Shown here: piece by piece, positions 4,906 through 37,139 of the stretch | Numbering within the stretch: the stretch's first letter is position 1 | Layout of the letters: the number at the start of each line of letters is the position of its first letter | Assembly (NCBI GenBank): GCA_025403435.1 | Contig: CM046350.1 | Coordinates: 13,917,612 to 13,981,611 of the forward strand | DNA length: 64,000 nucleotides | Reading direction: 5' to 3' | DNA from: Artocarpus heterophyllus | Taxonomy: Eukaryota; Streptophyta; Magnoliopsida; Rosales; Moraceae | Notes under the pieces: model-generated | Databases searched by the model: none | The model's input: the letters and a program-made list of their open reading frames with translations, nothing else | What the model was told of the DNA's origin: nothing | Program-made: the position numbers and the translations under genes

Positions 4906-5801
4906 CAAGTATTTTGAAGGACTTGAAATACCTTGCCCAATCTATTCTCTCATCTTTTATGTGTTATCAAACAATCATAGGTAAGTACCAAAAGCTCCCT
5001 CACTCATTCCCCTAACTTTACGTTTCCCTCTTACCAAACAGGCTTTAAAAATAAAAATCAACTTCGAAAAAAAAGACAAAGAAAAAAATAAGAGAAAAGG
5101 CTATAAACAAGGTAGGGGGGGAGCTATAAAAAGATGTCACAGCCATGAGGGTCTTAAAAGAATAATGTGAACCGAGCCGGGCTGCTAGAGAAAAAAAGAG
5201 TCATTCTAACCCCTATACGAACCTACCGACGGTATGTTTAACATTGAAATATGTTTGGCAAATTTTAAAGGCAAAGAACCATAAGCCCAGCCCATGGGTC
5301 GAAGACATAGGCCCGACTTGGTCCACGCACTGAGTCAAGAAGGCAAGCACAGGCTGAACTGTTTGGCCTGGTTCGTTTTGTCACCTACTCTCACCTAGAG
5401 TGTCATTGCCATCAAAATGTGAATTTTAAAAAGATTTTTACTTGTAAAACTTAAGTAGAAAATAACACAACAGTCGCTCCCTCAGTTTTCCTAAAAAAAA
5501 AAAATACTCTCTTTTATTTTATTTTATTTTATTTTTATATAGGAATAACAACGGTGTTTACAAAAAAAATACGTATTTTGACAAAATACAAAGATTTATG
5601 CTTTTTTTCTCTAAAAAAAAGGTTTATGGATTTTTTTATTTTTATTTTTATTTTTATTTTTATTGCCTTGGAATGCTAAGGATTTATGCAAGTAATTATT
5701 GCACCAGCCCCATCACTTCACGGTTGTGTCTAACTCATTTCTCTTCCAGCCCCAAAACCCTCCCAAAACCCCCAAAGCCCTAGACCACAAAGGCACAAAC
5801 A

Positions 5802-6941
5802 ATGTCGTTCTCTCAGCTCCTTCAACGCTCCTTCTCAACCTCCGCCCAGACTAATGGCGCCACCGTCATCAAGTCCTTCGCCACCCATCTCTACAAGGAA
5901 CGCAACCTCAAACGCCTCGTTGAGAAGTTCAAGAAGTCCTCCGAAGTCGACCGTTTCCGAACAAAAACTGGCATTTACGAAGATACCGTTCGCCGCCTCG
6001 CCGCCGCCAAACGCTTCAAATGGATCGAAGAGATCCTAGAGGACCAGAAGAAGTACAGCGATTTCTCCAAGGAAGGCTTTGCCGTCCGGCTCGTTTCTCT
6101 GTACGGGAAATCGGGCATGTTCGAGAATGCCCAGAAGGTGTTCGATGAAATGCCCACGAGGAACTGCCGACAGACAGTGCTGTCGTTTAATGCCCTTTTG
6201 GCTGCTTGCGTTAACTCGAGGAAGTTCGACTTGGTTGATGGGGTTTTCCGAGAGGTTCCGGCGAAGTTGGCCATTGAACCGGATTTGGTGTCATATAACA
6301 CACTCATCAAGGCGTTTTGCGAGATGGGTTCGCTGGATTCGGCGCTTTCCATGCTCGATGAAATGGAGACCAAGGGACTTACGCCTGATGTGATTTCGTT
6401 TAATACGCTTTTGAATGCATTTTATGGGAGTGATCGGTTTGCTGATGGTGATCGAATATGGTATCTGATGGAGAAGAAGTTTGTCGTTCCTGACATTAGG
6501 AGCTACAATGCCAAGTTGCTTGGATTGGCTTTCAATGGGAAAACAAATGAAGCTGTAGATTTGATTGGCGAAATGAGGGCTAAGGGGATCGAACCTGATG
6601 TGTTTAGCTTCAATTTGGTAATCGAAGGTTTTATTAAGGAGGGGAACTTGGAGGGAGCTAAGCAGTGGTACAGTGAACTGAGAACGAGCAAGTGTTTGCC
6701 GACTAAGACGACCTTTGAGAAACTTATTCCCTTTCTTCGTAAGCAGGGGGATTTGGAGCTTGCGTTTGAGCTTGCCCAGGAAGTTTTCACAAGGCGGTTC
6801 CTTCTAGATGTGGCATTGTTGCAGCGTGTAGTGGATGAGCTGGTCAAGGCGTCCAAGGTTGAGGAAGCAAAGAAGCTTGTGGAGCTTGGAAAGAATAATG
6901 ATTACCGTCGGTACCGCCTGAAGCTGCCTTCAGAGAACTAG
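5802..6941 (+). CDS. mitochondrial P-class PPR protein (At1g55890/At3g13160-like)
   Basis: A 379-residue intronless PPR protein. The N-terminus (MSFSQLLQRSFSTSAQTNGA) is Ser/Arg-rich like a mitochondrial presequence. About seven tandem 35-residue P-type repeats run from about 92 to 333; clear starts include SFNALL (128), SYNTLI (164), SFNTLL (199), SYNAKL (234) and SFNLVI (269). There is no E, DYW or SMR tail. Length and the C-terminal end resemble the Arabidopsis At1g55890 and At3g13160 proteins, which I recall as PPR subunits of the plant mitochondrial small ribosomal subunit. A mitoribosomal role is therefore likely but inferred from resemblance. The ATG lies 100 bp after a spacer change, and no alternative in-frame ATG lies upstream. 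Confidence 0.87.
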   Translation: MSFSQLLQRSFSTSAQTNGATVIKSFATHLYKERNLKRLVEKFKKSSEVDRFRTKTGIYEDTVRRLAAAKRFKWIEEILEDQKKYSDFSKEGFAVRLVSLYGKSGMFENAQKVFDEMPTRNCRQTVLSFNALLAACVNSRKFDLVDGVFREVPAKLAIEPDLVSYNTLIKAFCEMGSLDSALSMLDEMETKGLTPDVISFNTLLNAFYGSDRFADGDRIWYLMEKKFVVPDIRSYNAKLLGLAFNGKTNEAVDLIGEMRAKGIEPDVFSFNLVIEGFIKEGNLEGAKQWYSELRTSKCLPTKTTFEKLIPFLRKQGDLELAFELAQEVFTRRFLLDVALLQRVVDELVKASKVEEAKKLVELGKNNDYRRYRLKLPSEN

Positions 6942-12345: not shown

Positions 12346-12749
12346 CTTGGCACTTCCCAGGTCATCCCAATGCCTGAGAATTGCTGCTGTGGAAGTTATA
12401 ATCGCAGGCATGTTGTCCACGAACTTCATTGTATCTTGGGTTATGCCTTTGACCTAACAGAAAGAATATGTGGACCAACACCACATGCACTCCTGAGCTA
12501 ACCACGCCATTGCTCAAATACTCTTCCGCCTTTGGGGCTTTCCCTGATGCAAACCATCTTGCTTCCACTAAAAACGCGCCGCACAAGTTCCCCCTCTGCA
12601 CCACACAGAGATTAATATTAATTATGACTAGTCGTGATAATATCTCACATCCCGACTTGTAAAAGTATGGTGATCCGAATTCAGTTTGGTCCAACCCGAA
12701 AGCTCGCGGTGCGACAAATTGTGGTAAAAAACAAAAGTAAGATTTTTTC

Positions 12750-13078
12750 ATGAGATCTGTGGTGGTATCCCGTAGCTTACCACTGATCTTGCCGGGGGTG
12801 TGGGGGCTCCGCCCCCATGGTACGGACCTTTGTTATTGGACCGTTTAGTTTATGCTTTCGAGCCCATAGGGTTTTGCCTATACCTATATATATATATGAT
12901 GTATTGCGTTAGGGCTTATTCATTAGCGAATTTTGAGCCTGCCTAACGCCTCTATTGTAATCTTCACGAGTTTAGTGATTTTCTTCTCCTCCGCCCGTGG
13001 TTTTTTTCCCGTTTTAGGTTTCCACATAAATTCTCTGCGTGTTTTTGATCTTTGTTTCTATCACATTAATTTCGTAAC
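12750..13078 (+). repeat. probable solo copia-type LTR in TPS intron 5
   Basis: A GC-rich start (near GGGGGTGTGGGGGCTCC), a TATATATATATATG box at about 12886-12900, and an end that resembles the 3' end of element A's LTR: both have CTCCTC(C/T)GCCCGTGG, a T-run, a TAGG(T/G)TT stretch and a GTGTG/GTGTT run. It ends near CTATCACA. I could not define a target duplication, so the borders are approximate. Confidence 0.4.
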
Positions 13079-14205: not shown

Positions 14206-14731
14206 TGTTATTTAGTGACCCAAAACCCCTCCATTTGTTTTGGCAGTAAGGAAGCGCCGCGGCGCTTGAAAGCAGGGCCGTGACGCTACAATCCAGCGCC
14301 GCGGCGCTCCAATCCGAAAAGCAGCGCCGCGGCGCTCCAATGCGGCCAGATAGTGTATTTTGCGTTTTTACGCGTTTTTTGGGTTAATTTGGGTTAGGGT
14401 TTGAGTCCCCATACATATAAATACATCATATTCTCCATAGTTCATATTAGTGAGTCACATTAGAGAGACACATTAGAGAGTCACAAATTTTCATAGAGAT
14501 CATAGTGTTGAGAGTGATACAGAGAGCTCAGTCTTGTGAGTTTGTGAGTGATTGAGTGAGTGAATTTCTGTATTTGAGTGCTCTAAACACCGTTGTAATT
14601 TTCGTTTTGTGATTAGTGGATTGCTTCTCCTCTGCCCGTGGTTTTTTCACCCTTTATTAGGGTTTTTCTACGTAAATCTTGTGTGCAATTTTCTCTCTAT
14701 TTCTTGTTGCTTATTGCTTTGATTTCTAACA
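14206..14731 (+). repeat. element A 5' LTR
   Basis: Begins TGTTATTTAGTG and ends TTTCTAACA. It holds three perfect 12-bp palindromes GCGCCGCGGCGC (14254, 14296, 14324) plus one decayed unit near 14275, one more unit than the 3' LTR. A CATACATATAAATACATC stretch at about 14410-14428 is a plausible TATA region for the element's transcript. Confidence 0.93.
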
Positions 14732-14733
14732 AG

Positions 14734-17213: not shown

Positions 17214-17297
17214 TGTTGGAAACAAAGTGCGCAGCGGAATTTTAAAAAAAATTTCATCAGAGTATTTTCCAAAATACAAGTATGACATGTTATATGT
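17214..17297 (-). repeat. element B 3' LTR, distal fragment
   Basis: Matches the first 83 bases of the right LTR (33014-33096) almost exactly, apart from about two extra A bases in an A-run. Element C begins directly after it. Confidence 0.9.
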
Positions 17298-19263
17298 TGT
17301 GACACCCGTTATTCTCCTAACGGGTATTGAGGTAATTAAATTAATTTTTAATGTATAAAAAAAAATTGCTTCATTTAAATTTATTTTATAATATTTATTT
17401 TTATCTATTTTTAAGTTTTCTAAAATTCTCCTATATTTATTTAGTATGATTACTAAAAAGCCTTAGAACTTCTAATAAATCTCAAAAATGTCATATTGGC
17501 ATTATGTGTGTTAAAGTCTTTAGATGAGACATAAGGATATCTTTTCCAACTACTCTTGACCCTCATTTTCTTTATTTCCTCCGTGACATGCTTCAACATG
17601 TCTCCTCTATAATTGTTTCTATCACTTCTCTTCAAAGACTTCATCTTTTCTTCCTTTCTCTTCCACGGTTCCCACACTCTTCTTCTCATTTCTTTGCTGA
17701 AGCAAAATACTTAGAGAACTTCTTCAAGGCAGCCATAAAAATCAGCCACCATCACCTCCATTTGAGCAAGAATTTCAGTCATACCGAAGTAAAGGAACCT
17801 GTTTTGAAGCCATTTCAAGCTTCCAACTAACCATAATCCGAGGTTAGAATCTTATGAACAAATTTAGTCTTTCATTTATAAATTTTCTTTTATACTAAAG
17901 GATTATTCAAATTTGCGTTCTTAAACCTAAGTATATGTTTGTTGCTATTTTGGAGCATATGTATGAAGTCTAAGTGTATATGCCCTAGACAGAAAATTTA
18001 TATTGTTAAACTTTATAATACCTCTATGGGCAGTGGTTATTTCTTGAAATTCTAAGATTAAATTAAAATAAATTTTATGAATGTAGTTGTATGTTGTGCT
18101 TTAGTTTTAATTGTCCTTATGCACGCCTTAGGATCAAGGGAGTATGGAGCTAACGTTAATTGATTCCAGGATTAAGAGACTGTTGATAAGCTTGAAAGGT
18201 AGGGATTCTATTACTCATCTTTTGTGAGGTTTTTATAGAATTAAAATTGATTGTTTTGCCGCAATATATATATATCTATGTTGAACTGATATTATATGTG
18301 TATCACATATGAAACTATGACATGGACTCGTCTTGTATTGTACGGCGAGGAACATAATGAATTGACACATGTTATAAATTGAGAAGCATGGTTAGGAAAA
18401 TTAACTCTATTAATAATGATTTAATATAGAGAAATTGTGAGACATGAAAAGGGCGACGGTTACGTCCTTGGGCATGAATACCCTAAAAGGTAAAGTAGGG
18501 GGAAGGCGATGACGCTTCCTTGGGTTGAAAGTCCCAGAACACACTGTACAGGAATCGATTTGGTGAGGACTCGGGGCTTGATGTCCCCTCACCGGAACAC
18601 CCTTGGAATGTTTATAGGGTGATCAAGTGCGCCCATTTGAGTTTCGATGAGTTGAGTGATACTCAATTTAACATGGATACCTAGGAACAATGATGATTGG
18701 TAATATTTGTATAAATGTGTAATTATGACACTTGGTAATGATTAACTACGGTATCCATAAGATGTGATCATAATAAACCTCATAATCTGGAATATGATGT
18801 GACTTACTAACCATGCAGATTTTAATGTGGTAATGATAAAGGTGAGTAATGGCTTTCTCTACTGAGCATAGTGTTGCTCATACCCTTATGTTTATATCTT
18901 TTCAGGACTCACTAAGTGTGAGGTGGCTACGAGAAATATAGTTGAGGAAGTGATGTAGCTATATTACATTGGGACTGCTTCAATTGTTGAGAATGTTCTT
19001 CATGATAATGTAAGCATCAATTGTTACTTTCTGTGACTGTATTACAATGTGTTGAGGGTTAAAATGATGATGACAACAGTTTATATTATTAAATTTAAGG
19101 TGCTACATTAAAACTGTGGTTTATTTATCGTTTATATTTTTATTTTTGAGTTGAGAGTTTTCATTTAAGTCCCGGGCAAATTTTATTTTTAAGGTTTTAC
19201 TTTTATTATTTATTTTTATTTTATCTCATTAAAAACTGTTAACCCCCATATAGGGGCGTTACA
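17298..19263 (+). repeat. element C 5' LTR
   Basis: Starts TGTGACACCCGTTATTCTCC and ends CCCCATATAGGGGCGTTACA, a small terminal stem. Contains a hairpin-rich block at 18448-18604 also present in solo LTR D. Short open frames inside it recur in the other LTR copy and are not genes. Confidence 0.93.
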
Positions 19264-19270
19264 GAATTTT

Positions 19271-19283
19271 TGGTATCAGAGCC
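19271..19283 (+). other. element C primer binding site
   Basis: TGGTATCAGAGCC, complementary to initiator tRNA-Met, seven bases after the LTR end. Confidence 0.85.
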
Positions 19284-20751
19284 TAGGTTCGGTTAACCTA
19301 GGGAGTGTAGCACCACTTTAAAAAAATATATTTTTGAGATGGTTTTGAAGCTGAATTTTTATTGTCATCATCAAAATGAACCTTCACATTGATTTATACA
19401 GTCTAGAAGGATGTAACATGGAAAGGCCATAGAATGAAAATATCAATAGTTATATGAGTACAATAATTATATAGAAGGAAAGTATTAATAGTTATGAGGG
19501 AATGATAATTATATGGAATGAGTTTATAAGTAGAATGCTTATGAGAGATTCGTATAATATTTGGATCTATAAGCATATCTAATTCGTATAAACGATGAGA
19601 AATTCGTATAGATACGAGGATTTAAAAGCCTTTTGTCTCGTGAAAAACAATAAGAAATATAAGGCTTGATTTATTGATTTTAAAGTTTGACATAGATATG
19701 CCAAATTTTTCGTAATTGATTCAAACCTAAGTAATGATTATGTGTGGATTCGATGGAGCACATAAGTGTCAATGTCTTTTCTTAAAAGTTCTATATATTT
19801 GAGGAATATGATATAAGTTGGGAATCATGGTATTGAATCTTGAGAGAGATAAATGTTAGACTTTTGGTCTGTTGAGACTGTGTAAAGTCTAGAATGCATG
19901 AATCTCAAAATTGGAATATTTCGTTACGTACATTGTATTTAAGTGTATCAGTGAATCTTTTGGTTACCTAAGGTTTTGTTATATGAGGAAATTATATATT
20001 GTATGAGTAGAATTGTGGGGATTATAGATGTTCTTAAGTAGTAACATCAAGTGTCTTTGTTCATTGATATGGTCTACGTTGAAAGACGTAAATCGTATTG
20101 ATTTCAAGGTTAGTCGCATTCTAAACCCTTGGTAGTAATGATGATGAATCCATTGATAGATGTTGAGTATTAGGAATAACATATGGGTGTATGCATTGTT
20201 CAATAAGGTTTTGATTAAAACAAAATTATTTGAGTTGCTGGAAGATTATGTTGTTATGAAATGATTTTAAATATCATTCAGGAAGATCCTTGTTGTCGTT
20301 AAATTAGATTTGTTGTTCATAGTTAACTTTATCTATAGTGGGCTTTGAATTGGGTTTAAGATTATACGAATTGGTTTTCAATTTTATGTTTGTTATTTAA
20401 CTCGTTCTAAATGTGTTAAGGCCGAAACAACCTGACCATTTTCAACTAAGAACATTTGGGCCTAGTTCAAATCTTAAATCAGTTTGATTCACACTGTCTC
20501 TCCCACGTGGTCTCTATACGTGTCATATACAGTGGTTTAATTATTGTTTACATATACGTTTACTGTGCGTAAGAGCCTTATTTCTCCGAGTTCACTTTTT
20601 CTCTCTTAATTTGTTATTTTTTCTCTAAATCGCAAATCCTCTTCTTTTTCATTAAAAATTCTTCTTTTCCTCTAAAAGAAGAAGGAATTCTAGGATTCTG
20701 CAATTTACTATCTTAATTTTTCCTTTCTATTTACTCTTCTTTCATCTCATC
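19284..20751 (+). other. element C internal non-coding leader
   Basis: About 1.5 kb without a supported reading frame, where a normal element would encode gag. It is AT-rich with repeated ATTCGTATA-like words around 19560-19610. Its last 250 bases change character: G-box and ACGTG motifs, then a long pyrimidine-rich leader ending at the ATG of the 108-codon ORF. This resembles a captured plant promoter and 5' UTR. Confidence 0.55.
20504..20524 (+). promoter_or_regulatory. G-box and ACGTG motif upstream of cargo ORFs
   Basis: CACGTG at 20504-20509 and TACGTGTC at 20517-20524, about 230 bp before the first cargo ATG. These are typical bZIP/bHLH (ABRE-like) sites. Function is inferred from motif and position only. 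Confidence 0.35.
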
Positions 20752-21078
20752 ATGGACCCAAAGTACCAACACCTGAGAAAGTATTTCCCATCACTCTCCC
20801 AAAAGATTCTCAGAAAGAAATACAAGGCTAGAATTACTCGGTTGTGGATTCTTATGCGTTTTGGTATCCCTTGTGATGTGAGAATGTTAATAGAGGGGAA
20901 AATCCGTCCGAGTGACTTTAGTCAAGATGTCGGTTTACCAGGAACAGGTACCAGTCGTAGTGCAATGAAAAGAAGAGCTCGTGCCATCGTGGTCACTTGT
21001 AACAAATGTGGAAGACAAAATTGTAACGGTAAATGTACTTCACCTGGTTATATGTCTACGAATAGAGAGGATAAATAA
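20752..21078 (+). CDS. small basic Cys4 protein of unknown origin (element C cargo)
   Basis: A 108-residue ORF with no family I can name. The first half is rich in Lys, Arg and aromatic residues. Residues 64-77 are Gly/Ser-rich and lead into KRRAR (73-77), followed by a Cys cluster C-x2-C-x4-C-x3-C (Cys83, 86, 91, 95) and a short charged tail. It is not the CCHC knuckle of retroelement gag. A basic patch followed directly by a Cys4 cluster is the layout of the small nucleic-acid-binding proteins of some plant RNA viruses (carlavirus/vitivirus type); this is a resemblance in pattern, not an alignment. The ATG follows a pyrimidine-rich leader. An overlapping open frame without ATG continues downstream (21075-21272). 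RNA or DNA binding is possible but unproven. Confidence 0.5.
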   Translation: MDPKYQHLRKYFPSLSQKILRKKYKARITRLWILMRFGIPCDVRMLIEGKIRPSDFSQDVGLPGTGTSRSAMKRRARAIVVTCNKCGRQNCNGKCTSPGYMSTNREDK

Positions 21079-21272
21079 GGTTTTGTAGGGATGGACTTTC
21101 AAAGGAGAACTTGGATAGCATCCATCCTCCTCTCCACGGTCACCCTAGTGGATATGTTCAAGGAGCTATTTTTAAACTCTGGCCTAAATTTTATACAGAA
21201 AGACAACGCCTCAGGAATATGGTATTTCTAGATCCTGTTTGCCAAGCCATAAGAAAACTGGATGGGGAATAA
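21075..21272 (+). other. open frame without ATG after the Cys4 ORF
   Basis: A 66-codon open stretch in a different frame from the preceding ORF, ending in TAA. Its translation (with patches such as HPPLHGHPSGYVQGAIF and KLWPKFYTERQR) has protein-like composition. It may be a second exon, a frame-shifted extension, or chance. No convincing intron joins it: the only AG just before it leaves introns that look too short. Confidence 0.25.
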
Positions 21273-21915
21273 GTCATCGCTCTATAAAGGTTATTTAGTC
21301 TTTACTTATTTGAAGCAGTTTTAGCTGATGTTCAACAGTTTGTGTTTTTCTTTTACTCAGAATATTTGCTTTTGTGTTTGAAATAATTGTGATTATTAGA
21401 TTGATACAGTAAGTGTTAATATCTTATTTAATTTATGATTTTCTTAAATATATATATAATAAAATATATTATCTTATCAGACACGTTACATACGGTACAG
21501 TAATATGTTTGAATTTTGAAAAGCTTATCCAGATATTTCAAGATTTGTGTCTCAAATTTCAAAAGTTCTACAGTATTTGTCGTTTATATTAAATTTCTAG
21601 ACTTGGTGTATATTTGTCAAAAAGTCTACAGTTGTGTCATGAGGGTCTTCTGTCGAATTGTTCTCAATTGTCAAAAGTTATACAATTAGAGTCTAATCTT
21701 TTTCAAAAAGTGAATCAGATTTTCTGTAAACTATCAATCACCTTATCTTACTTTCTTATCCGCACAAGATTTTGTTTAAATCTTTGGATTACCTTTTCAT
21801 TACCTACTTGTCTATCTCTTTAGCCCTTTTTGTATATTTCTCATCTTTAAAATCTCATGTAGAACCCGAAGTCTAAGTGGAGCAGACATTAAGCAACCAC
21901 TTCTATAAACCAAAT
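21273..21915 (+). other. spacer between the element C cargo ORFs
   Basis: AT-rich, no supported coding frame. CTCTATAAAGG at about 21279-21289 could be a TATA box for the downstream LOG-like ORF. The last 100 bases are again pyrimidine-rich, like a leader. Confidence 0.4.
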
Positions 21916-22566
21916 ATGTCTACCTCCCAGTCCACGAAGAAAATAAAGAATGTCTGTGTCTTTTGTGGTTCCAGCCTTGGAAAAGATAAAGCTTATTTAG
22001 AAGCTGCAAATCACTTAGGGCAAGTCCTAGCACGCAAGAAGATTAACATAATCTATGGGGGTGGTAGTATAAAAATGATGGTAAATATGGCACTAGCAGC
22101 TAGGTCTAGTGACGCTACTGATGTAAGAATTTGGCCTCATATTCCAGTTGAAGGAAACCTTTGTAAGGAAGCCATAGGTAAGGGAGAAGGAGTCAGGAGT
22201 ATCCCTAAAAATTTTAAAGACATAATCTATAATTCTGATGCTTTTATAGCATTACCTGGTGGTCTAGGTACTCTTGAGGAAATATTTATAGTTGCTTGTG
22301 GGCAATTGTTGGGCTTTTATTCCAAACCTTTGGGACTGCTGAACGTAAAGGGTTTTTATGACGGTCTTTTGAAATTTCTAGATTACGCTGTGGAAGAAAA
22401 CATCACTACAGAATCGGAGAGACAAATCTTTGTCACTGCTTCAACAGCTGAGGAATTGATAGATAAAATGCAAATCATACATCCAGAATCCGACACTGCA
22501 ACATCCAAGCTTGAATGGGAAAGGGAAAGCCGGGAGCGGCCAATTGATTTGAATCTCCATCTGTAA
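21916..22566 (+). CDS. LOG family protein (cytokinin riboside 5'-monophosphate phosphoribohydrolase-like), retrotransposon cargo
   Basis: A complete 216-residue LOG-family protein, the usual length of plant LOG enzymes, encoded without introns. Family motifs are VCVFCGSS (13-20), IIYGGGS (45-51), DAFIALPGGLGTLEE (108-122) and KPLGLLNVKGFYDGLL (137-152), with a C-terminal helix and tail. LOG enzymes release active cytokinin bases from nucleotide precursors in the cytosol. In canonical LOGs the helix before DAFIALPGG contains an RK pair whose Arg is catalytic. Here that stretch reads IPKNFKDIIYNS (97-108) and lacks Arg, and the GLMG after YGGGS is replaced by IKMM. The motif Glu residues (121-122) remain. 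Activity is therefore doubtful or altered. The ORF lies between the two LTRs of element C. Plant LOG genes normally have several introns, so this looks like capture of a spliced transcript. Confidence 0.88.
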   Translation: MSTSQSTKKIKNVCVFCGSSLGKDKAYLEAANHLGQVLARKKINIIYGGGSIKMMVNMALAARSSDATDVRIWPHIPVEGNLCKEAIGKGEGVRSIPKNFKDIIYNSDAFIALPGGLGTLEEIFIVACGQLLGFYSKPLGLLNVKGFYDGLLKFLDYAVEENITTESERQIFVTASTAEELIDKMQIIHPESDTATSKLEWERESRERPIDLNLHL

Positions 22567-23504
22567 TCTTTTTGTTTTATCTTTGGCATGTAGGCATGTG
22601 TGTCCGTATTTCGTGTGTTACGAATAACCGTTTGCCTTGTATTCTGTGTTTCTTGTGGTACGTTGTTGTTCAATCTTTTAGATTCATTGAGCCTAATGCC
22701 GGGATGGCTGGATACGGAGTACTTGATGCTCTCGAAACGCATCCTTCTTAAGGTCCGATCTTTTGTTTATCGATGTTTTTGTATCCTCTAAGCATGCATG
22801 ATATGGATAGCTGGTATACGGAGTGCCTTGTACTCTCGAAACGTATCCGTATTATGTTTGTAATGTGTAATATTCTGTTAATATTATGTGGAAGTACCAA
22901 AGTCAGTTATGGGGATATTCCATATGAAATATGAGTATATTATTTGGATTGAATGTTTGTGTCATGAGGATAGCTGTTTAATGAAAAATATGTCGGGTAT
23001 GTTTGCAACCAGAGATTCCGTTTAATATCTCTATGAATAAGTTTAATGTATGGTTTTGAATATAAGTGTTTGTGATATATGTTTTATGATTATGTTTTAG
23101 TTTATTAGTTGAGGTATGAAATCAAATATATTTGACTTTTCCTTACTCAAAAAGGAAAAGGAACCTAAAGATGAAGTATATAAAATTTCTCTGGCAATCT
23201 CCTTAAATGTGATTGTAAATCACAGTCCATGGACAATGAAGGACTGGAATCATGGTATGGTCAATATGTATGCCTGATCAGATTCTTAGACTATTATACG
23301 GTGTTATAAGTTGAAACTTGTCAGAAATACTCTCATTGAGGGATTTAGGAGTAAGATTTATTATGCAAGTAAATAAGTGGAGATACGATAACTTAAATTT
23401 GGAGGACAAACAACATTAACGGTTTAGACTCAGAATTGGAATCATAGTGGAATCATAATTTTTACTAGTATTGCTAGAATTGAAATTTCGAGGACGAAAT
23501 TTCT
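22567..23504 (+). other. element C 3' non-coding region with two matching hairpins
   Basis: No supported gene. Two copies of an imperfect hairpin occur at 22710-22744 and 22815-22846. Each has (GG)ATACGGAG(T) on the left, CTCTCGAAACG(C/T)AT on the right, and a loop of about 7-9 bases. The rest is AT-rich up to the PPT. Confidence 0.5.
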
Positions 23505-23520
23505 TTAAGGGGGGTAGAGC
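23505..23520 (+). other. element C polypurine tract
   Basis: TTAAGGGGGGTAGAGC immediately before the 3' LTR, following the TTTCGAGGACGAAATT box typical of chromovirus-type elements. Confidence 0.85.
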
Positions 23521-25487
23521 TGTGACACCCGTTATTCTCCTAACGGGTATTGAGGTAATTAAATTAATTTTTAATGTATAAAAAAAAATTGCTTCATTTA
23601 AATTTATTTTATAATATTTATTTTTATCTATTTTTAAGTTTTTCTAAAATTCTCCTATATTTATTTAGTATGATTACTAAAAAGCCTTAGAACTTCTAAT
23701 AAATCTCAAAAATGTCATATTGGCATTATGTGTGTTAAAGTCTTTAGATGAGACATAAGGATATCTTTTCCAACTACTCTTGACCCTCATTTTCTTTATT
23801 TCCTCCGTGACATGCTTCAACATGTCTCCTCTATAATTGTTTCTATCACTTCTCTTCAAAGACTTCATCTTTTCTTCCTTTCTCTTCCACGGTTCCCACA
23901 CTCTTCTTCTCATTTCTTTGCTGAAGCAAAATACTTAGAGAACTTCTTCAAGGCAGCCATAAAAATCAGCCACCATCACCTCCATTTGAGCAAGAATTTC
24001 AGTCATACCGAAGTAAAGGAACCTGTTTTGAAGCCATTTCAAGCTTCCAACTAACCATAATCCGAGGTTAGAATCTTATGAACAAATTTAGTCTTTCATT
24101 TATAAATTTTCTTTTATACTAAAGGATTATTCAAATTTGCGTTCTTAAACCTAAGTATATGTTTGTTGCTATTTTGGAGCATATGTATGAAGTCTAAGTG
24201 TATATGCCCTAGACAGAAAATTTATATTGTTAAACTTTATAATACCTCTATGGGCAGTGGTTATTTCTTGAAATTCTAAGATTAAATTAAAATAAATTTT
24301 ATGAATGTAGTTGTATGTTGTGCTTTAGTTTTAATTGTCCTTATGCACGCCTTAGGATCAAGGGAGTATGGAGCTAACGTTAATTGATTCCAGGATTAAG
24401 AGACTGTTGATAAGCTTGAAAGGTAGGGATTCTATTACTCATCTTTTGTGAGGTTTTTATAGAATTAAAATTGATTGTTTTGCTGCAATATATATATATC
24501 TATGTTGAACTGATATTATATGTGTATCACATATGAAACTATGACATGGACTCGTCTTGTATTGTACGGCGAGGAACATAATGAATTGACACATGTTATA
24601 AATTGAGAAGCATGGTTAGGAAAATTAACTCTATTAATAATGATTTAATATAGAGAAATTGTGAGACATGAAAAGGGCGACGGTTACGTCCTTGGGCATG
24701 AATACCCTAAAAGGTAAAGTAGGGGGAAGGCGATGACGCTTCCTTGGGTTGAAAGTCCCAGAACACACTGTACAGGAATCGATTTGGTGAGGACTCGGGG
24801 CTTGATGTCCCCTCACCGGAACACCCTTGGAATGTTTATAGGGTGATCAAGTGCGCCCATTTGAGTTTCGATGAGTTGAGTGATACTCAATTTAACATGG
24901 ATACCTAGGAACAATGATGATTGGTAATATTTGTATAAATGTGTAATTATGACACTTGGTAATGATTAACTACGGTATCCATAAGATGTGATCATAATAA
25001 ACCTCATAATCTGGAATATGATGTGACTTACTGACCATGCAGATTTTAATGTGGTAATGATAAAGGTGAGTAATGGTTTTCTCTACTGAGCATAGTGTTG
25101 CTCATACCCTTATGTTTATATCTTTTCAGGACTCACTAAGTGTGAGGTGGCTACGAGAAATATAGTTGAGGAAGTGATGTAGCTATATTACATTGGGACT
25201 GCTTCAATTGTTGAGAATGTTCTTCATGATAATGTAAGCATCAATTGTTACTTTCTGTGACTGTATTACAATGTGTTGAGGGTTAAAATGATGATGACAA
25301 CAGTTTATATTATTAAATTTAAGGTGCTACATTAAAACTGTGGTTTATTTATCGTTTATATTTTTATTTTTGAGTTGAGAGTTTTCATTTAAGTCCCGGG
25401 CAAATTTTATTTTTAAGGTTTTACTTTTATTATTTATTTTTATTTTATCTCATTAAAAACTGTTAACCCCCATATAGGGGCGTTACA
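23521..25487 (+). repeat. element C 3' LTR
   Basis: 1967 bp, differing from the 5' LTR by one T-run length change and three substitutions that I could find by eye. The hairpin block recurs at 24672-24828. Confidence 0.93.
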
Positions 25488-27404
25488 GCCGAAGAACCTC
25501 CGCGACCTGTGTAGAGAAGTAACGTTCCAGAAGAGCCTCAACCAACTGGTCTTCTTTGCTATTCTCTATCCACAACCGGAGTGAGTGTGGGCTCACACGT
25601 ACAGCTCTTCCACCGGTGACTCTCCTTCCAACCAATAGAGAGAACCCAAAGCTAGTGTTCGTGATTTGTGAACAAAAGCTCTCAGGGAGTTTTCAGATGC
25701 TCACTAGAAGAGTATCACTCTTAATCTCTCAAATTGATCTGAGTAAATCATTAGACTCACTCCCTTTTTATACCTATTGGTCCTTGGGGTCAGTCCATAT
25801 CAGATTAGGTCTCAAAAATCGAAATAGAATCAAGTTCGGATCAATATCTGATAAGATACGCGTGAAAAACGCGTAATCTTAGCTGTCGCGGTCGGCATGC
25901 CGAACTGTGAGATAGGCAGGCCGAACTTGCCAGTTCGGCAGGCCGAACTTTATGATCGGCAGGCCGAACTGCCGAGAAAAAATCTCCGCGAATCTTTTAT
26001 TTTCCACCCGAGATTCTAAAGGATAAAGTCTCAGTTTTGATTCAAATAGCCCAATAGAAAAGATATCTGATCAAAACAAACTCTATCAAGATAATCTCTA
26101 AGAAAATAAATCAATTCAAATAATTCTACAAGTTTATCTTGTTCTAATTGTCCAAAATTAAAACAACCGATAAACAGACAAGAATTATCCGAACGCCATA
26201 ATTCAACAAGTTCATCTTGAACTAATTTCTTACATAATTAATTCAACCGATAAACAGACATGAATTATTTGATTCTTATAAATTTTAAACCAATCTGATA
26301 AATCCGACATAAGTCACCAATTATTGGAAAAGCACGCCGTGTCGTTACAGGACTTTGTGAGCTAGCAAAGGGGACCAAAATGGACCTATAAAGTTCAAGC
26401 TCATGATAATTATGAAACCCAATATCCCAGATATACATTTCACAATTATCAACTCCAACGCTACTCCACTAAAAGCTTGGAGCTGCACTCTCGAACTTTA
26501 CAGAATTACGAAGCTCGTGTAGCTAAGTCTCCATGACATATCATAGTGTATCGCATCCCCATATGATCATCCATAATCGGCTTAAGGACAAGTTCTGTCT
26601 TACCTTCCCGATTATTTTTATCTTACGTTCCATTGTCTCACCATTAGAAAACTTACCATCCAAAGATAGTATACCATTCGGTTACACCTATGTATCCAAA
26701 TGGTTGAGCGCTCCAGTTTTCCAATTACAGGACAACGCATATAAGAGGATATCATTACTCCTAAAGAGGAGCTATGGATTCCATATCTATGAATAACAAG
26801 TCTACGCTATCAAGAGTCATGCCTCCAACGTACCGGCATGCATGCCACTATAGAGATGTGGGAGTCACCCATTGGTACATCAAAAGACACAAGTCGAGAC
26901 AACGGGCCCATTATTCATCTCAGGATTAAGATACAATACAAACGACTGTCTAAAGTGAATCGATTTGCCAAGACAGAATTATTAATCCAAATCAATTCAC
27001 TTTATGTCCCGATCCAACACATCGTCACCTATGACAACGCGCCAATGTTTCTATTCACGGAGTCCAACTCCGATGGCCAAGACAAACCATCTCCCAAAAG
27101 GGATATAGACAACATAACAATCTTTACATGAATAAAGCGCCCAACTTTATTCCCTCGATTGCGGATCATATATTTTAGACCATCACCTTAAGAGTCGTGT
27201 CTACCGCATAATCATCCCATCATATGCCCAACTCTTAAGGTTTAGACTGACAGTCTCAGACTACTGTTTGCTTATCATACATTCAACGAATATGAACGTA
27301 AAGAGGACAATATTTGGTATATATAAATGAATAAATTCTTTATTGATAAAAATGTCTCCAAAAACGTATTACATTTTTACTCCTTAGAGCATACATGTCT
27401 AACA
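25488..27404 (-). repeat. element B 3' LTR, main part
   Basis: Matches 33129-35024 of the right LTR nearly base for base. It has one extra 21-bp unit in the GGCAGGCCGAACT repeat cluster (25891-25975), and the 32 bp corresponding to 33097-33128 are absent. Open frames of 87-106 codons in it recur identically in the other LTR and are not genes. Confidence 0.93.
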
Positions 27405-27418: not shown

Positions 27419-30400
27419 CTAAGTGAGTAAATACTGCAAATTTCGCATCCCCATAGCTTCCACATGCCTTTCGAAGACTCTCCCAGAAAGTGTCTTCGTA
27501 AATGGATCAGCTAAATTGTCCTCTGACGCGATCTTGCACACCGTGACATGCCCGCTCTCAACGAAGTCCTTTATCACATGATACTTCCGATCAATATGCT
27601 TACTCTTCTTGTGAAATCTTGGTTCCTTAGCATTAGCTACCGCCGCACTGTTATCACAGTACAGTGATACCGCTTTATCCATACCAGGAACTACCTCAAG
27701 ATCCCCAAGGAACTTGCGGAGCCACACTGCTTCTTTCGAAGCATCACTAGCCGCCACATACTCGGCCTCCATCGTTGAATCCGAAGTGCAATCTTGCTTC
27801 GCACTTCTCCAACTGATGGCACCGCCACCCAGAGTAAACACAAACCCTGAAGTCGATTTCCTAGAATCCAGGCAGGATTGAAAATCCGAATCAGTGTATC
27901 CTAGAGGAGTTAAATCCTCACCCGAATACACAAGCATATATCCTCGAGTCCTTCTCAGGTACTTGAAAATATGCTTTACCGCAACCCAATGGTTCGGTCC
28001 TGGATCCGCCTGAAATCGACTCACAATCCCGACCGCATAGCTAATATCCGGTCGAGTGCAAAGCATGGCATACATGAGACTACCCACTGCCGAAGCATAA
28101 GGCACCTTCTTCATGTATTCTCTTTCTTCATAAGACTTTGGAGAGTCTTTCTTAGAAAGAGTAATTCCAGACCTAGATGGTTGCCCACCTTTCTTGGAAT
28201 CCTGCATTGCAAACCTCCTGAGAATTTTATCTATGTAGCCGGCCTGTGACAAAGCTATCATTTTGTTCTTCCTATCCCGCAAGATCTGGATACCGAGAAC
28301 AAAATTAGCCTCACCCAAGTCCTTCATGTCAAACTGCTTGGTCAACCATAATTTGACCGATGACAACGCCCCAACGTCATTGCCAATTAGCAGAATGTCA
28401 TCTACATAGAGTAGTAGAAAAACCACTTTCCCATTCTTAATGTGTTTGTAAACACATGGTTCATCCACATTTTGTGAGAACCCATAAGTCTTGATCACTT
28501 GATCAAATCTTATGTTCCAAGAACGAGAAGCCTGCTTAAGTCCATAAATAGACTTTAGCAACTTACAAACCTTACCCTCTTGACCCGCGACCTTGAACCC
28601 GTCTGGTTGTTCCATATAAATGGACTCATCAAGATAGCCATTTAGAAAAGCCGTCTTGACATCCATCTGCCAAATCTCGTAGTCGAGAGCGGCAGCTATG
28701 GACAAGAGAATCCGGATGGACTTAAGCATGGCTACAGGCGAAAAGGTTTCCTCATAATCGATTCCTTCCTTTTGCGTATAACCCTTAGCTACCAGTCTAG
28801 CCTTAAAGGTTTCGACCTTTCCATCCACTCCTCTTTTCCTCTTGTAGATCCACTTACACCCTATGGGTTTTACCCCTTCGGGAAGATCCACAAGCTCCCA
28901 GACCCGATTAGTCTCCATAGACTTCATCTCAATGTTCATGGCCTCTGTCCAGAGTCTTGAATCAACATCCTCCATAGCTTCTGCGTAAGTATAAGGATCC
29001 CTGTCATGTTCATCCGGTTCAGCCAAAAAGACCTCCCCATTGAACATATACCTCTCAGGTTGACGCCCGATCCTCCCACTACGCCGAAGCCCCTGTGGTT
29101 GTTGTTCAGGTTTGTTTGGTTTTTCTACACCGATCGGAATGGTTTCGTTCGGAACCTCCGGAGTAAACGGATTACCCCTCAACTCCTCAAGCACCACTTT
29201 GCTTTGAGGTTTAAAGTCGTTCATGTAACTCTCCTCAAGGAAAGTTGCATTAGTTGAAACCACGACTTTATTTTCCTTTGGGTTATAAAAATAACCCCCT
29301 TTAGTCCCTTTTGGATATCCTACAAACACGCAAACTTCTGAACGTGCTTCCAACTTATTCGGATCCTTAAACAGGACATGAGCTGGACATCCCCATATTC
29401 GAATATGGTTTAAGGATGTCTTCCGTCTTGTCCACAACTCGTGAGGAGTTTTAGGGACCGATTTTGAAGGCACATTGTTCAAAAGATAACATGCGGTTTG
29501 TAGTGCATATCCCCAAAAGGATAAAGGCAATGATGAATAACTCATCATGGACCGAATCATGTCCAACAAAGTCCTATTCCTTCTCTCCGCTACGCCATTC
29601 TGCTGCGGAGTGCCCGGCGCAGTCAAATGGGATAAAATCCCATTCTCTAACAAGTGTCCCAAGAACTCATCAGAAAGGTATTCCCCACCTCGATCAGATC
29701 GAAGTGCCTTTATGGGTCTACCCAATTGCTTTTCCACTTCAGCCCGAAACTCCCTGAACTTATCATAAGTTTCGCTTTTGTGGTGCATTAGGTACACATA
29801 CCCATATCTTGAGTAATCATCAATAAAAGTGACGAAGTACTCATACCCTCCTCGTGCCCGGATGTTCATCGGTCCGCAAACATCACTATGCACAAGTTCT
29901 AGAACCCCTTCGGCCCTATTGCCCTTAGACCCGTATGGTCTTTTGGTCATTTTACCCTCCAAACAAGACTCACATTGAGGTATAGATTCCACCTTTAAGT
30001 GACTTAAAGGTCCATCCCTTACCAACCTTTGAATCCTATTCAGGTTAATATGGCCAAGGCGCAAATGCCAAAGATAAGTCTTATTAGAGTGAGAAGTTTT
30101 AAGTCTTTTTGAGTCATTATCATTTATCTCAGCATTAAGCAATAAGTCCATCTTAGGTTCGATAAAATATAGATTATTTTGCATCCATCCAGAACAGATA
30201 AAAGATTTGTTTTTACGAATCACCACTTTTTCATTAAAAGATACCACGTAGGAGTCTTTAAATAAAGAAGATACAGAAATTAAATTCCTTTTAAATTTAG
30301 GAACATAAAAACAATCTCGCAAAATTAAACTCCTATAATTATCAAAACAAAGATGGACATCTCCCACTGCTTCCGCTGAGACCAAGGATCCATCGCCCAT

Positions 30401-31372
30401 CCGAAGCGTTAAGTCTTCACGAAGTAGACTTCTCGTTTCTTTGAATCCCTGCAGAGAAACACAAACATGATTAGTTGCACCGGAATCTATGACCCAAATG
30501 TCACTGGATTCCTCAACCAAACAAGTTTCTAAATATAGAAGATCACACCTACCTCCCTTGGAAAGGAAGTCCTTGCAATGCTTCTTTATATGCCCGACCT
30601 TACCACAAAAGAAGCACTTAAGCTTCTTTGGGTTCTTCTTCTTTTTCTTCTTGCTCTTGGTAGCAATAGGAATAGAAGACTTACCACTCTTGGCCCGTTG
30701 CTTCTTTCCATTCCCAGAGTTAGGATTGGAACCAGAAGCAGCTACCATATTGGCCTCTCCACCAGCAGGAGACTCCCTGATCAGCAGTTCAAACTCCTGT
30801 AACTGTTTCATCAGTTCTGTCAAGGTCATATCCCGTCTATTGCTCAAATTAAAAGTAGCTCTAAACGGAATAAATTCCTTAGACAGAGTCTCAAAGACCA
30901 TAGTCATCTGAGTTTCAGCATCGATGTCGGCTCCATTGGTTTGAGCCTCAGCGAGGTAACCCATGACCAACATCATGTGCTCCTTTACAGATGTCCCCGG
31001 TCTCTGTCTACAGTTTAAGAGTTTCCGAAGCGCCCCTTGCCGCTTTGTTATGGCCTGGCCTCCAAACATATCCTCAAGATTATCCAAGATCTGCTTCGCA
31101 GTCTCATAATCCTGATGTTGAGCCTGCAGCACGTTATTCATGCTAGCCATAACATAGCAGCGGGCCTGATCATTAGCATCTTTCCAGCGTTCGTACGCTT
31201 GGAATTGCTCATTACTTGAGTCTCCCGTAGGCTCGGGAGGACAAGGAGTTGTCAGTACATATTTCAGTTTCTCAAAGGATAGGACGATGTCAAGGTTCCG
31301 TTTCCAATCATTATAGTTCTCACCGGTTAATTGGTTTTTGTCAAGTATCGATGATAAAGCGTTTTTAGACAT
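27419..31372 (-). CDS. element B Ty1/copia gag-pol polyprotein, intact
   Basis: A 1317-residue uninterrupted polyprotein; the start is the ATG at 31372, as upstream codons in the frame lack a good start. Order: UBN2-type gag (about 1-230), Lys-rich stretch, CCHC knuckle (Cys253, Cys256, His261, Cys266), protease with DSGAT near 296, integrase zinc-binding region ([13 protein letters not shown] ... CESC), catalytic core ([19 protein letters not shown]), reverse transcriptase ([20 protein letters not shown]) and RNase H ([23 protein letters not shown]). Protease and integrase before RT is the copia order. All key catalytic motifs are present and there are no stops, so it could supply proteins in trans. 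The clade within copia was not resolved. Confidence 0.96.
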
Positions 31373-33013
31373 TTTCAATCTACAATAAAGAATCATATAC
31401 CAAACATAAGCAAACATATTTAATAATTTAGTAAGATAACACAATCATGTAAAATCATACAAATGTGTTTATGTGTCAAAACCTTGAAAATATCACAACC
31501 TTACAACGATAATTCCCAACTCAGAATTCAACAAGCTCCTAGGGGAGTCATGCCAAATTCAATCAGGAACACGGATCCCCTCCTGATTAATATATGCCAT
31601 CCAGGACCCGTATGATCCAGCATATACTAATAATCGTTTCTTTGGCCATTAATTTTATTAACAGAGCTCCTAGGGGAGGTTAATAATAAAATTAACGTGA
31701 GTGTATAACCACCGTTTCAATATTTTATCCATGATTTATAATCACCACCTAGGGGTGTGCAACCATAAATCATACTAAAATACCTTATCCTTTCAGAGAT
31801 CCAATCTGGTACATGATAGAAATCCCTTCCTAGGGGTTGGGACCATCATGTTCTTCCTATGGACCAACGATGGAGGCCTTAGGTTCTCTCTTCGAAAACC
31901 TTCTCCCACTCAATCTTTTAAAGTCAAGGTTTTATTTTAAAATTATGCATGAACAATTTTAATATGAGCGGCACTCCCTATTCTATATGACATGTTATCA
32001 ATATATATGGTAAATCATATTATAATGCAGACAAGCAAAGCAATCAAGCAAAGCTACAAGCATAATAATAATAACCGTAATATTATGGTTCCACCCTAGA
32101 GAATAGAAAAAATAAGATTACAAGAGAATAATCGAGACATTTATCGATTCTTCATCCTTGAATCCTCAAGCTGTATCCTTCTTCATGTAATATCCATCTT
32201 CAAGTCCTCAATCCCGTATGAATCGAACACTTCATATTTCCGGTCATATCCAAATTTAATGTTTCTCAGAATCGTCCCAAAAATAAAATTAAAACTGCAC
32301 TAAAAAATCGCACCTTTTCTGGACACCTGGCAGCTCTCAGTCGGCAGGCCGATCTGGGTGATCGGTCTGCCGATCATGGTGGTTCGGCCTGCCGAACATG
32401 AAGATTTGGCCTGCCGGCAGAGCACCAAAATTTCTGCCCCACTGTCGGCCTGCCGATCTGTGACCTTCGGCCTGCCGAACTGTGAGGTCCGGCATGCCGA
32501 CCGAGCAGAAAACACTCAATCCAGAAAATACAATTTTAATGCAATTCATCAATTTTATTTTCAACAATTCAAAAACATAAAATTAGAGACTCAGGAAATA
32601 CCTGGAGACGCCATCATCAATCTTTGAGTTCCGACTTCTCGTTCCGTCTTCTCCGAATAATTATTTAATTACAAAATTCTTACAAATTAAAAAATTAAAT
32701 AATTCCTAGACGGAGATGATAGTCCGCCATCTAATTACATGAAAAACCTAGATACACATTCTAACCTCTAAGGAACCATAACCGGTATTAATTAATTAAT
32801 AAATAATTAAACAACATTTTAATCAACCATAATTAATTAATAAACATTCACCATATAATCCATGACAACATATATATTATATAGAAACCTAGAGTGCCAT
32901 CTCTCTATAAAATTCAATTCAAGCATAGGAGAGATTAAGATCACAAAATTTATGCATATAACATGATCACAAACTTGCAAATTTATGTAAAAAACTTCGG
33001 CTCTGATACCAAT
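31373..33013 (-). other. element B 5' leader with hairpin array and GC palindromes
   Basis: 1.6 kb between PBS and gag start, without a supported gene. It contains six successive inverted repeats (31524-31851), four of them centred on a CTAGGGG core, and a cluster of TCGGC-NN-GCCGA palindromes (32341-32501) like those in this element's LTRs. A leader this long suggests RNA-level functions such as packaging or dimerisation, which is an inference. Confidence 0.7.
33000..33011 (-). other. element B primer binding site
   Basis: TGGTATCAGAGC on the minus strand, next to the right LTR. It shows that the element runs right to left. Confidence 0.9.
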
Positions 33014-35024
33014 TGTTGGAAACAAAGTGCGCAGCGGAATTTTAAAAAATTTTCATCAGAGTATTTTCCAAAATACAAGTATGACATGTTATATGTATAA
33101 ATTAAACAGATCTTACTAACCTCAGTGTGCCGAAGAACCTCCGCGACCTGTGTAGAGAAGTAACGTTCCAGAAGAGCCTCAACCAACTGGTCTTCTTTGC
33201 TATTCTCTATCCACAACCGGAGTGAGTGTGGGCTCACACGTACAGCTCTTCCACCGGTGACTCTCCTTCCAACCAATAGAGAGAACCCAAAGCTAGTGTT
33301 CGTGATTTGTGAACAAAAGCTCTCAGGGAGTTTTCAGATGCTCACTAGAAGAGTATCACTCTTAATCTCTCAAATTGATCTGAGTAAATCATTAGACTCA
33401 CTCCCTTTTTATACCTATTGGTCCTTGGGGTCAGTCCATATCAGATTAGGTCTCAAAAATCGAAATAGAATCAAGTTCGGATCAATATCTGATAAGATAC
33501 GCGTGAAAAACGCGTAATCTTAGCTGTCGCGGTCGGCATGCCGAACTGTGAGATAGGCAGGCCGAACTTGCCAGTTCGGCAGGCCGAACTGCCGAGAAAA
33601 AATCTCCGCGAATCTTTTATTTTCCACCCGAGATTCTAAAGGATAAAGTCTCAGTTTTGATTCAAATAGCCCAATAGAAAAGATATCTGATCAAAACAAA
33701 CTCTATCAAGATAATCTCTAAGAAAATAAATCAATTCAAATAATTCTACAAGTTTATCTTGTTCTAATTGTCCAAAATTAAAACAACCGATAAACAGACA
33801 AGAATTATCCGAACGCCATAATTCAACAAGTTCATCTTGAACTAATTTCTTACATAATTAATTCAACCGATAAACAGACATGAATTATTTGATTCTTATA
33901 AATTTTAAACCAATCTGATAAATCCGACATAAGTCACCAATTATTGGAAAAGCACGCCGTGTCGTTACAGGACTTTGTGAGCTAGCAAAGGGGACCAAAA
34001 TGGACCTATAAAGTTCAAGCTCATGATAATTATGAAACCCAATATCCCAGATATACATTTCACAATTATCAACTCCAACGCTACTCCACTAAAAGCTTGG
34101 AGCTGCACTCTCGAACTTTACAGAATTACGAAGCTCGTGTAGCTAAGTCTCCATGACATATCATAGTGTATCGCATCCCCATATGATCATCCATAATCGG
34201 CTTAAGGACAAGTTCTGTCTTACCTTCCCGATTATTTTTATCTTACGTTCCATTGTCTCACCATTAGAAAACTTACCATCCAAAGATAGTATACCATTCG
34301 GTTACACCTATGTATCCAAATGGTTGAGCGCTCCAGTTTTCCAATTACAGGACAACGCATATAAGAGGATATCATTACTCCTAAAGAGGAGCTATGGATT
34401 CCATATCTATGAATAACAAGTCTACGCTATCAAGAGTCATGCCTCCAACGTACCGGCATGCATGCCACTATAGAGATGTGGGAGTCACCCATTGGTACAT
34501 CAAAAGACACAAGTCGAGACAACGGGCCCATTATTCATCTCAGGATTAAGATACAATACAAACGACTGTCTAAAGTGAATCGATTTGCCAAGACAGAATT
34601 ATTAATCCAAATCAATTCACTTTATGTCCCGATCCAACACATCGTCACCTATGACAACGCGCCAATGTTTCTATTCACGGAGTCCAACTCCGATGGCCAA
34701 GACAAACCATCTCCCAAAAGGGATATAGACAACATAACAATCTTTACATGAATAAAGCGCCCAACTTTATTCCCTCGATTGCGGATCATATATTTTAGAC
34801 CATCACCTTAAGAGTCGTGTCTACCGCATAATCATCCCATCATATGCCCAACTCTTAAGGTTTAGACTGACAGTCTCAGACTACTGTTTGCTTATCATAC
34901 ATTCAACGAATATGAACGTAAAGAGGACAATATTTGGTATATATAAATGAATAAATTCTTTATTGATAAAAATGTCTCCAAAAACGTATTACATTTTTAC
35001 TCCTTAGAGCATACATGTCTAACA
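33014..35024 (-). repeat. element B 5' LTR
   Basis: 2011 bp, on the + strand starting TGTTGGAAAC and ending ATGTCTAACA. Uninterrupted reference copy for the split left LTR. Contains GGCAGGCCGAACT repeats at 33532-33595. Confidence 0.94.
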
Positions 35025-36634: not shown

Positions 36635-37139
36635 TGTTATTTAGTGACCCAAAACCCCTCCATTTGTTTTGGCAGTAAGGAAGCGCCGCGGCGCTTGAAA
36701 GCAGCGCCACGGCGCTCCAATCCGAAAAGCAGCGCCGCGGCGCTCCAATGCGGCCAGATAATGTATTTTGCATTTTTACGCGTTTTTTGGGTTAATTTGG
36801 GTTAGGGTTTGAGTCCCCATACATATAAATACATCATATTCTCCATAGTTCATATTAGTGAGTCACATTAGAGAGACACATTAGAGAGTCACAAATTTTC
36901 ATAGAGATCATAGTGTTGAGAGTGATACAGAGAGCTCAGTCTTGTGAGTTTGTGAGTGATTGAGTGAGTGAATTTCTGTATTTGAGTGCTCTAAACACCG
37001 TTGTAATTTCCGTTTTGTGATTAGTGGATTGCTTCTCCTCTGTCCGTGGTTTTTTCACCCTTTATTAGGGTTTTTCCACATAAATCTTGTGTGCAATTTT
37101 CTCTCTATTTCTTGTTGCTTATTGCTTTGATTTCTAACA
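36635..37139 (+). repeat. element A 3' LTR
   Basis: 505 bp, same ends as the 5' LTR but with one fewer 21-bp unit in the GCGCCGCGGCGC cluster (36682-36745). One palindrome is changed to GCGCCACGGCGC. Confidence 0.93.

Follow-up and report, generated by a model that had tools for sequence, protein, structure and literature searches.

A LOG-like gene and a putative virus-type companion gene in an abundant non-autonomous LTR retrotransposon family of Artocarpus heterophyllus

Introduction

YgdH/LOG domains have been found in long terminal repeat (LTR) retrotransposon consensuses of Citrus sinensis and C. clementina and, when a looser filter was applied, in a consensus of Populus trichocarpa (PMC9289625), a result that agrees with the study of Steinbauerova et al. 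2011 cited there. Here, we describe a related arrangement in a window of 64,000 nucleotides from Artocarpus heterophyllus (positions 13917612–13981611 of contig C24, in an assembly of 985 Mb in 334 contigs), in which an LTR element at 17298–25487 encloses a LOG-like gene. The element probably inserted recently and belongs to a non-autonomous LTR family of very high copy number. In place of gag-pol, this family carries a cassette of two open reading frames (ORFs): ORF1, which encodes a zinc-finger protein probably related to viral nucleic-acid-binding proteins (NABPs), and a gene for a LOG-like Rossmann-fold protein. Full novelty of the arrangement does not stand, as the available part of the Citrus and poplar account makes LOG inside plant gypsy elements already known (PMC9289625).

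The Citrus and poplar elements share with the window family a LOG-type domain carried by plant LTR retrotransposons of gypsy type. They contain pol, since they were found through reverse transcriptase, whereas the window family lacks gag-pol; the available part of that account is silent on NABP-like ORFs, on loss of the catalytic residue and on non-autonomous derivatives numbering thousands of copies. In orchids, gypsy elements carry an AlkB m6A demethylase, the product of which is active in vitro (PMC9289625). To the extent that the same part describes them, these elements share with the window family the possession of an extra enzyme domain, in their case of a kind also present in flexiviruses, and differ in their length of 25 kb, in having the domain in an added ORF, in the enzyme concerned and in its activity having been shown in vitro. 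Among the open-access papers that our searches listed, we found none that describes an LTR retrotransposon with a gene resembling NABPs or links LOG to flexiviruses, and none that anticipates the NABP-type partner, the block exchange, the loss of catalytic residues or the non-autonomous form described below.

Non-autonomous LTR elements are known under names such as LARD, TRIM and TR-GAG. For most additional ORFs of plant retrotransposons, neither the origin nor the function is known. A review deals with extra ORFs of LTR elements and with elements that transduce genes, maize Bs1 among them (PMC7264820). Judging by the available text of that review, non-autonomous elements and Bs1 resemble the window family in combining LTRs, a primer binding site (PBS) and a polypurine tract (PPT) with a foreign insert and the absence of pol; unlike them, the window family has kept two ORFs in thousands of copies and several clades.

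Structure and abundance of the element family

The window element lies on the forward strand between LTRs of 1966 bp (17298–19263, with TG...CA ends) and 1967 bp (23521–25487), which are three substitutions and one 1-nt indel apart over 1966 bp. If a substitution rate of 1.3e-8 per site and year is assumed, this divergence corresponds to an insertion age of about 60 thousand years. The PBS, TGGTATCAGAGC, which we take to be of the initiator tRNA-Met type, was read directly from the sequence at 19271–19282, as was the G-rich PPT, AAGGGGGGTAGAGC, at about 23507–23520; the PPT and the LTR ends presumably resemble those of the Tekay/Del chromovirus lineage. The interior contains 29 stop-to-stop frames at least 45 codons long, none of which has a gag or pol Pfam match. 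An uninterrupted intronless ORF of 216 codons at 21916–22566 (+) encodes a LOG-like protein that matches Lysine_decarbox (PF03641) at E=9e-22, with 78 bits against a cut-off of 27. The anatomy given in the original prediction, comprising near-identical 2-kb LTRs, a PBS and PPT, the absence of gag-pol and a complete LOG-like ORF of 216 residues, is thereby confirmed.

An internal 31-mer located downstream of LOG has 3,127 matches in the genome at up to three mismatches, and a 32-mer of the LTR has 10,115, with 0 for the backwards-pattern control of each. A DNA search with the LTR as query gave 0 matches, common words being skipped in it. These counts bear out the predicted spread as a non-autonomous family, which would total about 25 Mb, or 2.6 % of the genome, if every internal match were full length. 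As LTR matches are more than twice as numerous as internal ones, the difference is to be sought in solo LTRs, changed internal markers or other elements sharing the LTR. At the first 30 exact marker matches on contig C1 (L031–L060), LOG was found in all 30 and was open in 28. Together with six loci hand-picked from the same exact-match list (L061–L066), the marker loci chosen without regard to LOG carry the gene in 36 of 36 cases and an open frame in 33, or 34 of 37 when the window is included. Complete LTR pairs were resolved in four of these six longer copies (divergence 0, 0.0005, 0.0010 and 0.0067); all four have the same LTR as the window element and a perfect 5-bp target-site duplication (TSD). 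In a search with a LOG query of 217 residues (21913–22563, one extra leading codon beyond the ORF), 150 of 150 scored matches were identical over the query, which is uninformative on selection because these were the best-scoring 150 of 6,128 first-look candidates. Since L004 and L035 are one copy, the 66 family loci represent 65 distinct copies.

Two clusters were observed in addition: five LOG copies on C9 (16537152–16564379) and three LTR copies on C1 (11394344–11407602), both evenly spaced at about 6.6 kb. This spacing suggests tandem arrays of elements that share LTRs, generated via unequal recombination.

ORF1, the companion of the LOG-like gene

Upstream of LOG and on the same strand lies ORF1 (20752–21272, +), the product of which resembles carlavirus/flexivirus-type nucleic-acid-binding proteins. 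ORF1 is open over 173 codons in all six copies of about full length and is open in 32 of 37 copies in a set composed of 30 loci fetched for an identical LOG, the six longer copies and the window. The window copy is itself frameshifted, and therefore only a 108-codon remnant is visible there.

In all seven relatives' ORF1 copies scanned, the top-ranked profile is viral (Viral_NABP in six, Carla_C4 in one). The strongest match is that of L084, which reaches 23.6 bits for Carla_C4 against a cut-off of 20.9 (E=5e-5) and is the only one of the seven to pass a Pfam cut-off; all seven fall short of the cut-off of 23 for Viral_NABP, with E values of 4e-4 in L084 and, over 82 residues, 4e-4 in L086. 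Carlavirus belongs to Betaflexiviridae according to a database lookup, and the range of Viral_NABP is presumably that of plant flexiviruses. ORF1 shares with these proteins the C4 finger region and its surroundings, roughly 55–82 residues; it differs from them in its location in a chromosomal LTR element beside LOG and in that much of its N- and C-terminal parts is unmatched. Pfam scans of ORF1 matched no gag or zinc-knuckle profile, and a Protein Data Bank (PDB) search with ORF1 returned nothing meaningful. Scans of IMG/VR with the ORF1 and LOG proteins found no relatives, and a scan of Rfam gave no match. A genome scan with PF01623 gave 0 matches, which is uninformative because the ORF1 of L084 escaped it too.

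The ORF1–LOG pair in other elements

In a genome search with TIGR00730, in which 150 of 5,377 candidates were scored, 150 of the 151 listed rows cover at least 163 of the 178 profile positions in one frame; they score 139–159 bits, compared with 130 for the window LOG, and 23 rows contain internal stops. Sixteen LOG ORFs hand-chosen from these rows group as clades A (12 ORFs), B (one), C (two) and D (one), the last being that of the window. The clade C copy L085 belongs to the same LTR family and is older (LTR stretches 96.1 % identical); its LTR is followed by the same PBS motif, TGGTATCAGAG, and it carries LOG. In the clade B copy L084, ORF1 and LOG stand within unrelated flanks. The clade A copies L083, L086 and L087 all have the order protease–ORF1–LOG, the protease of L086 and L087 being deduced from 93–96 % nucleotide identity to L083, and ORF1 is open in L086 and L087. 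A gag match was obtained for L083 alone (Retrotrans_gag, E=1e-22, with weak zinc knuckles at E 0.09–0.16). As the ORF1–LOG pair recurs in different contexts, such a pair is older than these families.

A comparison of the window with L085 revealed a block at 22034–22677 (+), made up of the greater part of LOG and the sequence that follows, in which divergence is 24.5 %, compared with 7.1 % outside. The clustering score of this block was reached by 0 of 2000 shuffles, a result that demonstrates clustering and not its cause. Synonymous divergence between the two copies is 0.43 in LOG and 0.14 in ORF1, and L065, a copy diverged by 3–7 % with a D-type LOG, has no such block relative to the window. 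To judge from these alignments, the block was probably exchanged between subfamilies by recombination.

Many of the 151 listed TIGR00730 rows may belong to the clade A element family. In another list of 150 matches, from a genome query aimed at host LOG exons, nine rows of shorter LOG-like frames, each of exactly 112 codons, were also noted (e.g. C18:22709296, C10:6118253 and C17:14352078).

Selection on ORF1 and LOG

Changes within the window's family were scored against the noncoding mutation spectrum to give omega, the dN/dS ratio; the P values are optimistic because the copies are related. For ORF1, omega is 0.41, with 26 of 57 variants synonymous (expected fraction 0.255, P=8e-4; 10–22 in wrong frames), and it falls to 0.11 for variants common to at least three copies (9 of 12 synonymous, P=5e-4). 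These values show purifying selection on ORF1. Variants of LOG common to at least three copies give an omega of 0.42 (9 of 19 synonymous, P=0.051), and all-pairs ratios taken without the spectrum correction are 0.45 for LOG and 0.16 for ORF1. L046, which has a frameshift, was excluded from one set of the LOG counts.

Between copies, omega for ORF1 was 0.11–0.21 in each of six pairs compared. For LOG it was 0.12–0.22 between clades A, B and C and 0.35 within A; comparisons of clade D with the others gave 0.19–0.58 and those within D gave 0.42–0.45, some clade pairs being saturated at synonymous distances above 1. Clades A, B and C, separated by synonymous distances of 0.8 to 2.7, all have an open LOG frame. 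The dN/dS of the LOG ORF, a check named in the original prediction, points to constraint between clades A, B and C and gives no clear sign of selection within the family, where omega is 0.75. Our reading of these ratios is that the pair has long been constrained and that ORF1 still is, with the LOG of the amplified family apparently relaxed or nearly neutral.

Proposed mechanism and competing explanations

According to the explanation that we favour, the LTR would drive transcription of the element RNA, and an autonomous chromovirus-like element would supply the proteins that copy it in trans. ORF1 would bind nucleic acid and might protect or package the element RNA or counter host silencing, which would account for its conservation. 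The LOG of the ancestral cassette may have been an active nucleotide hydrolase, and that of the amplified family would be no more than a pseudoenzyme able to bind nucleotides, or else a passenger.

A number of observations weigh against this explanation. No autonomous partner of the family was identified. In the window's family, ORF1 matches Viral_NABP at E of about 0.01 and Carla_C4 at about 0.1, both below cut-off, and the unrelated MCM_OB profile ranks first for the window remnant (E=0.052). Single-sequence structure models of the two proteins are poor, with mean pLDDT values of 45.9 and 45.4, and could not serve for a structure search. Among the copies in other backgrounds, the ORF1 of L085 is open over 162 codons and is missing codons at its start and end, that of L083 contains in-frame stops, and L084 shows no PBS motif and no direct repeats other than diverged ones. 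Finally, the within-family omega of LOG rests on 34 synonymous variants out of 101, where a fraction of 0.275 is expected (P=0.10); the true frame does no better than wrong frames, which have 25–35 synonymous variants.

The LOG result is what would be expected if LOG and ORF1 were neutral passengers, the family having amplified because its LTRs, PBS and PPT are good substrates for the machinery of a partner and the ORFs being open only since the copies are young. The variants of LOG fit the noncoding spectrum, and the LTRs are nearly identical; nevertheless, the excess of synonymous variants in ORF1, in the total as well as in the shared set, the open LOG frames at large synonymous distances in clades A, B and C and the recurrence of the pair in another element make it doubtful that both genes are mere passengers.

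It is likewise rather unlikely that ORF1 is a gag-like or host zinc-finger protein, with the viral NABPs being derived from such plant sequences or convergent with them. The confinement of the likeness to the surroundings of the C4 finger and the single relative in seven that passes a cut-off, for one of the two viral families, fit such a history, as does MCM_OB, which ranks first for the window remnant and is found below cut-off in four of the seven relatives. It is opposed by the viral family that heads the ranking in every relative scanned and by the lack of gag or zinc-knuckle matches in ORF1, whereas the gag of L083 is readily matched by Retrotrans_gag.

A further and quite unlikely proposal, going beyond the explanation that we favour, is that ORF1–LOG is a portable effector cassette that moves between LTR lineages, perhaps taken whole from a LOG-bearing, flexivirus-like plant RNA virus, with its LOG part swapped by recombination, and that benefits its carrier. 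If this were true, the advantage would lie in RNA binding or silencing suppression by ORF1 and in the manipulation of nucleotide or hormone signals by LOG; a parasite of a parasite would have outgrown its source, and its most successful branch would have made LOG non-catalytic.

As regards the autonomous partner, two family LTR markers on the same strand of C1 (1007103 and 1015782) lie 8.7 kb apart with no LOG-element marker listed between them. The pair is a candidate for such a partner.

Catalytic residues and origin of the LOG-like gene

The window LOG matches TIGR00730 with 130 bits against a cut-off of 96 and falls far under the cut-off of 300 for the NCBIfam equivalog NF058542 (CtkRMPhLog), with 85.5 bits. 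Its closest solved structure is that of Arabidopsis 2A33 (At2g37210; E=2e-43), the match reaching residue 207. It shares with the LONELY GUY cytokinin riboside 5'-monophosphate phosphoribohydrolases the protein family and the PGGXGTXXE motif (here PGGLGTLEE), and it differs from them in the loss of the catalytic Arg and of the prenyl site. In CgLOG, Arg99 and Glu122 have been proposed as the catalytic pair, M96, H97, K100, E125 and W129 form the prenyl site, and in the available part of that study Ala substitution of crucial residues nearly abolishes activity, with one exception (PMC4979012). In the window LOG, Glu122 is retained, Arg99 is replaced by Asn, and all five prenyl positions are changed, to I, P, F, I and G, respectively; the same Asn is present at all 66 family loci. 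Of the 16 further LOG ORFs sampled, 15 retain the catalytic Arg and only L082, a member of clade D, does not. Among these 16, H97 and E125 occur in none, K100 occurs only in L067, and Met96 (11 of 12) and Trp129 (12 of 12) are kept in clade A only.

With the catalytic Arg and the prenyl residues replaced, we do not predict that the LOG of family D, the amplified one, activates cytokinins. A canonical active LOG was rejected for this family on the same grounds, and the mobile cytokinin-activating enzyme envisaged for this locus finds no support. The ancestral LOG may plausibly have been an active enzyme. According to a mutation simulation, the chance of a neutral LOG staying stop-free at its divergence from plant LOGs is below 0.02, a figure that cannot separate host history from element history.

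Ordinary plant LOG genes have several introns, and the original prediction had taken the element gene for a captured spliced host transcript. Taken together with a product that would still be a cytokinin-activating enzyme, this account is quite unlikely. The absence of introns, the plant LOG as best solved-structure match and the retained PGGXGTXXE motif agree with it; however, the element LOGs are no nearer AtLOG3 (41–49 % identical) than CgLOG (40–51 %), and in a tree of 13 rows nine of them form one clade (100/99) outside AtLOG3+AtLOG8 (98/98). The replaced catalytic and prenyl residues, the existence of several diverged clades and the coupling of LOG with a virus-type gene also speak against simple capture. 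The tree is weak evidence because of its few rows, long branches and only two plant LOGs. On this weak evidence, a recent copy of a host LOG as source is not supported, and a recent retrocopy was set aside as a candidate. No ordinary host LOG exon was recognisable among the 150 matches, at 54–65 % identity, listed for the genome query aimed at such exons.

Biological significance

A virus-type gene and a gene of a hormone-enzyme family recur jointly across element backgrounds, and the first of them is under selection in a family of about three thousand copies. Two ideas thereby become testable, namely that retrotransposons carry virus-like counter-defence genes and that mobile DNA re-uses a hormone-pathway protein. 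A caution also follows for annotation: in genomes of this kind, a gene annotated as an intronless LOG can belong to a transposon and in some cases lacks residues that cytokinin activation requires.

Insertion site of the window element

The LOG element interrupts an LTR of copia B, a copia element on the minus strand (pol at 27422–31444). The outer part of the broken LTR lies at 17214–17297 (−) and matches 33014–33096, and the remainder occupies 25488–27404 (−); 32 bp, corresponding to 33097–33128 of the intact LTR, are gone at the insertion point. A TSD is absent from the window copy, the two edges of which read TATGT and GCCGA. Insertion of cDNA by end joining would account for both the absent duplication and the lost 32 bp. 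These two features are also what an assembly join would leave, a possibility that we regard as negligible here and excluded for the family as a whole, as both flanks are the same copia LTR, every one of the 36 marker loci has LOG, and in four relatives both LTRs are present together with a clean TSD. A single-copy arrangement was rejected along with it, given the thousands of marker matches.

Copia B is bordered by GGATG on both sides and lies inside another copia element, copia A. The whole forms a triple nest at 14206–37140, in which copia A (LTRs 14206–14732 and 36635–37140) contains copia B, which in turn contains the LOG element; the polyprotein frame of copia B is open over 1341 codons. 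A degenerate LTR of the LOG-element family, in pieces 80–91 % identical that are split by unrelated sequence and without a PBS after it, is present at 62083–63774 (+).

Other genes in the window

Four minus-strand frames, at 44970–45548, 47625–48662, 57059–57817 and 57790–58578 (193, 346, 253 and 263 codons, respectively), have no Pfam match at E 0.001. Host genes recognized with Pfam are a DUF538 gene (148–627), a PPR protein gene (5784–6938), a terpene synthase C-terminal exon (12365–12832) and an NPH3 family gene (42317–43252).

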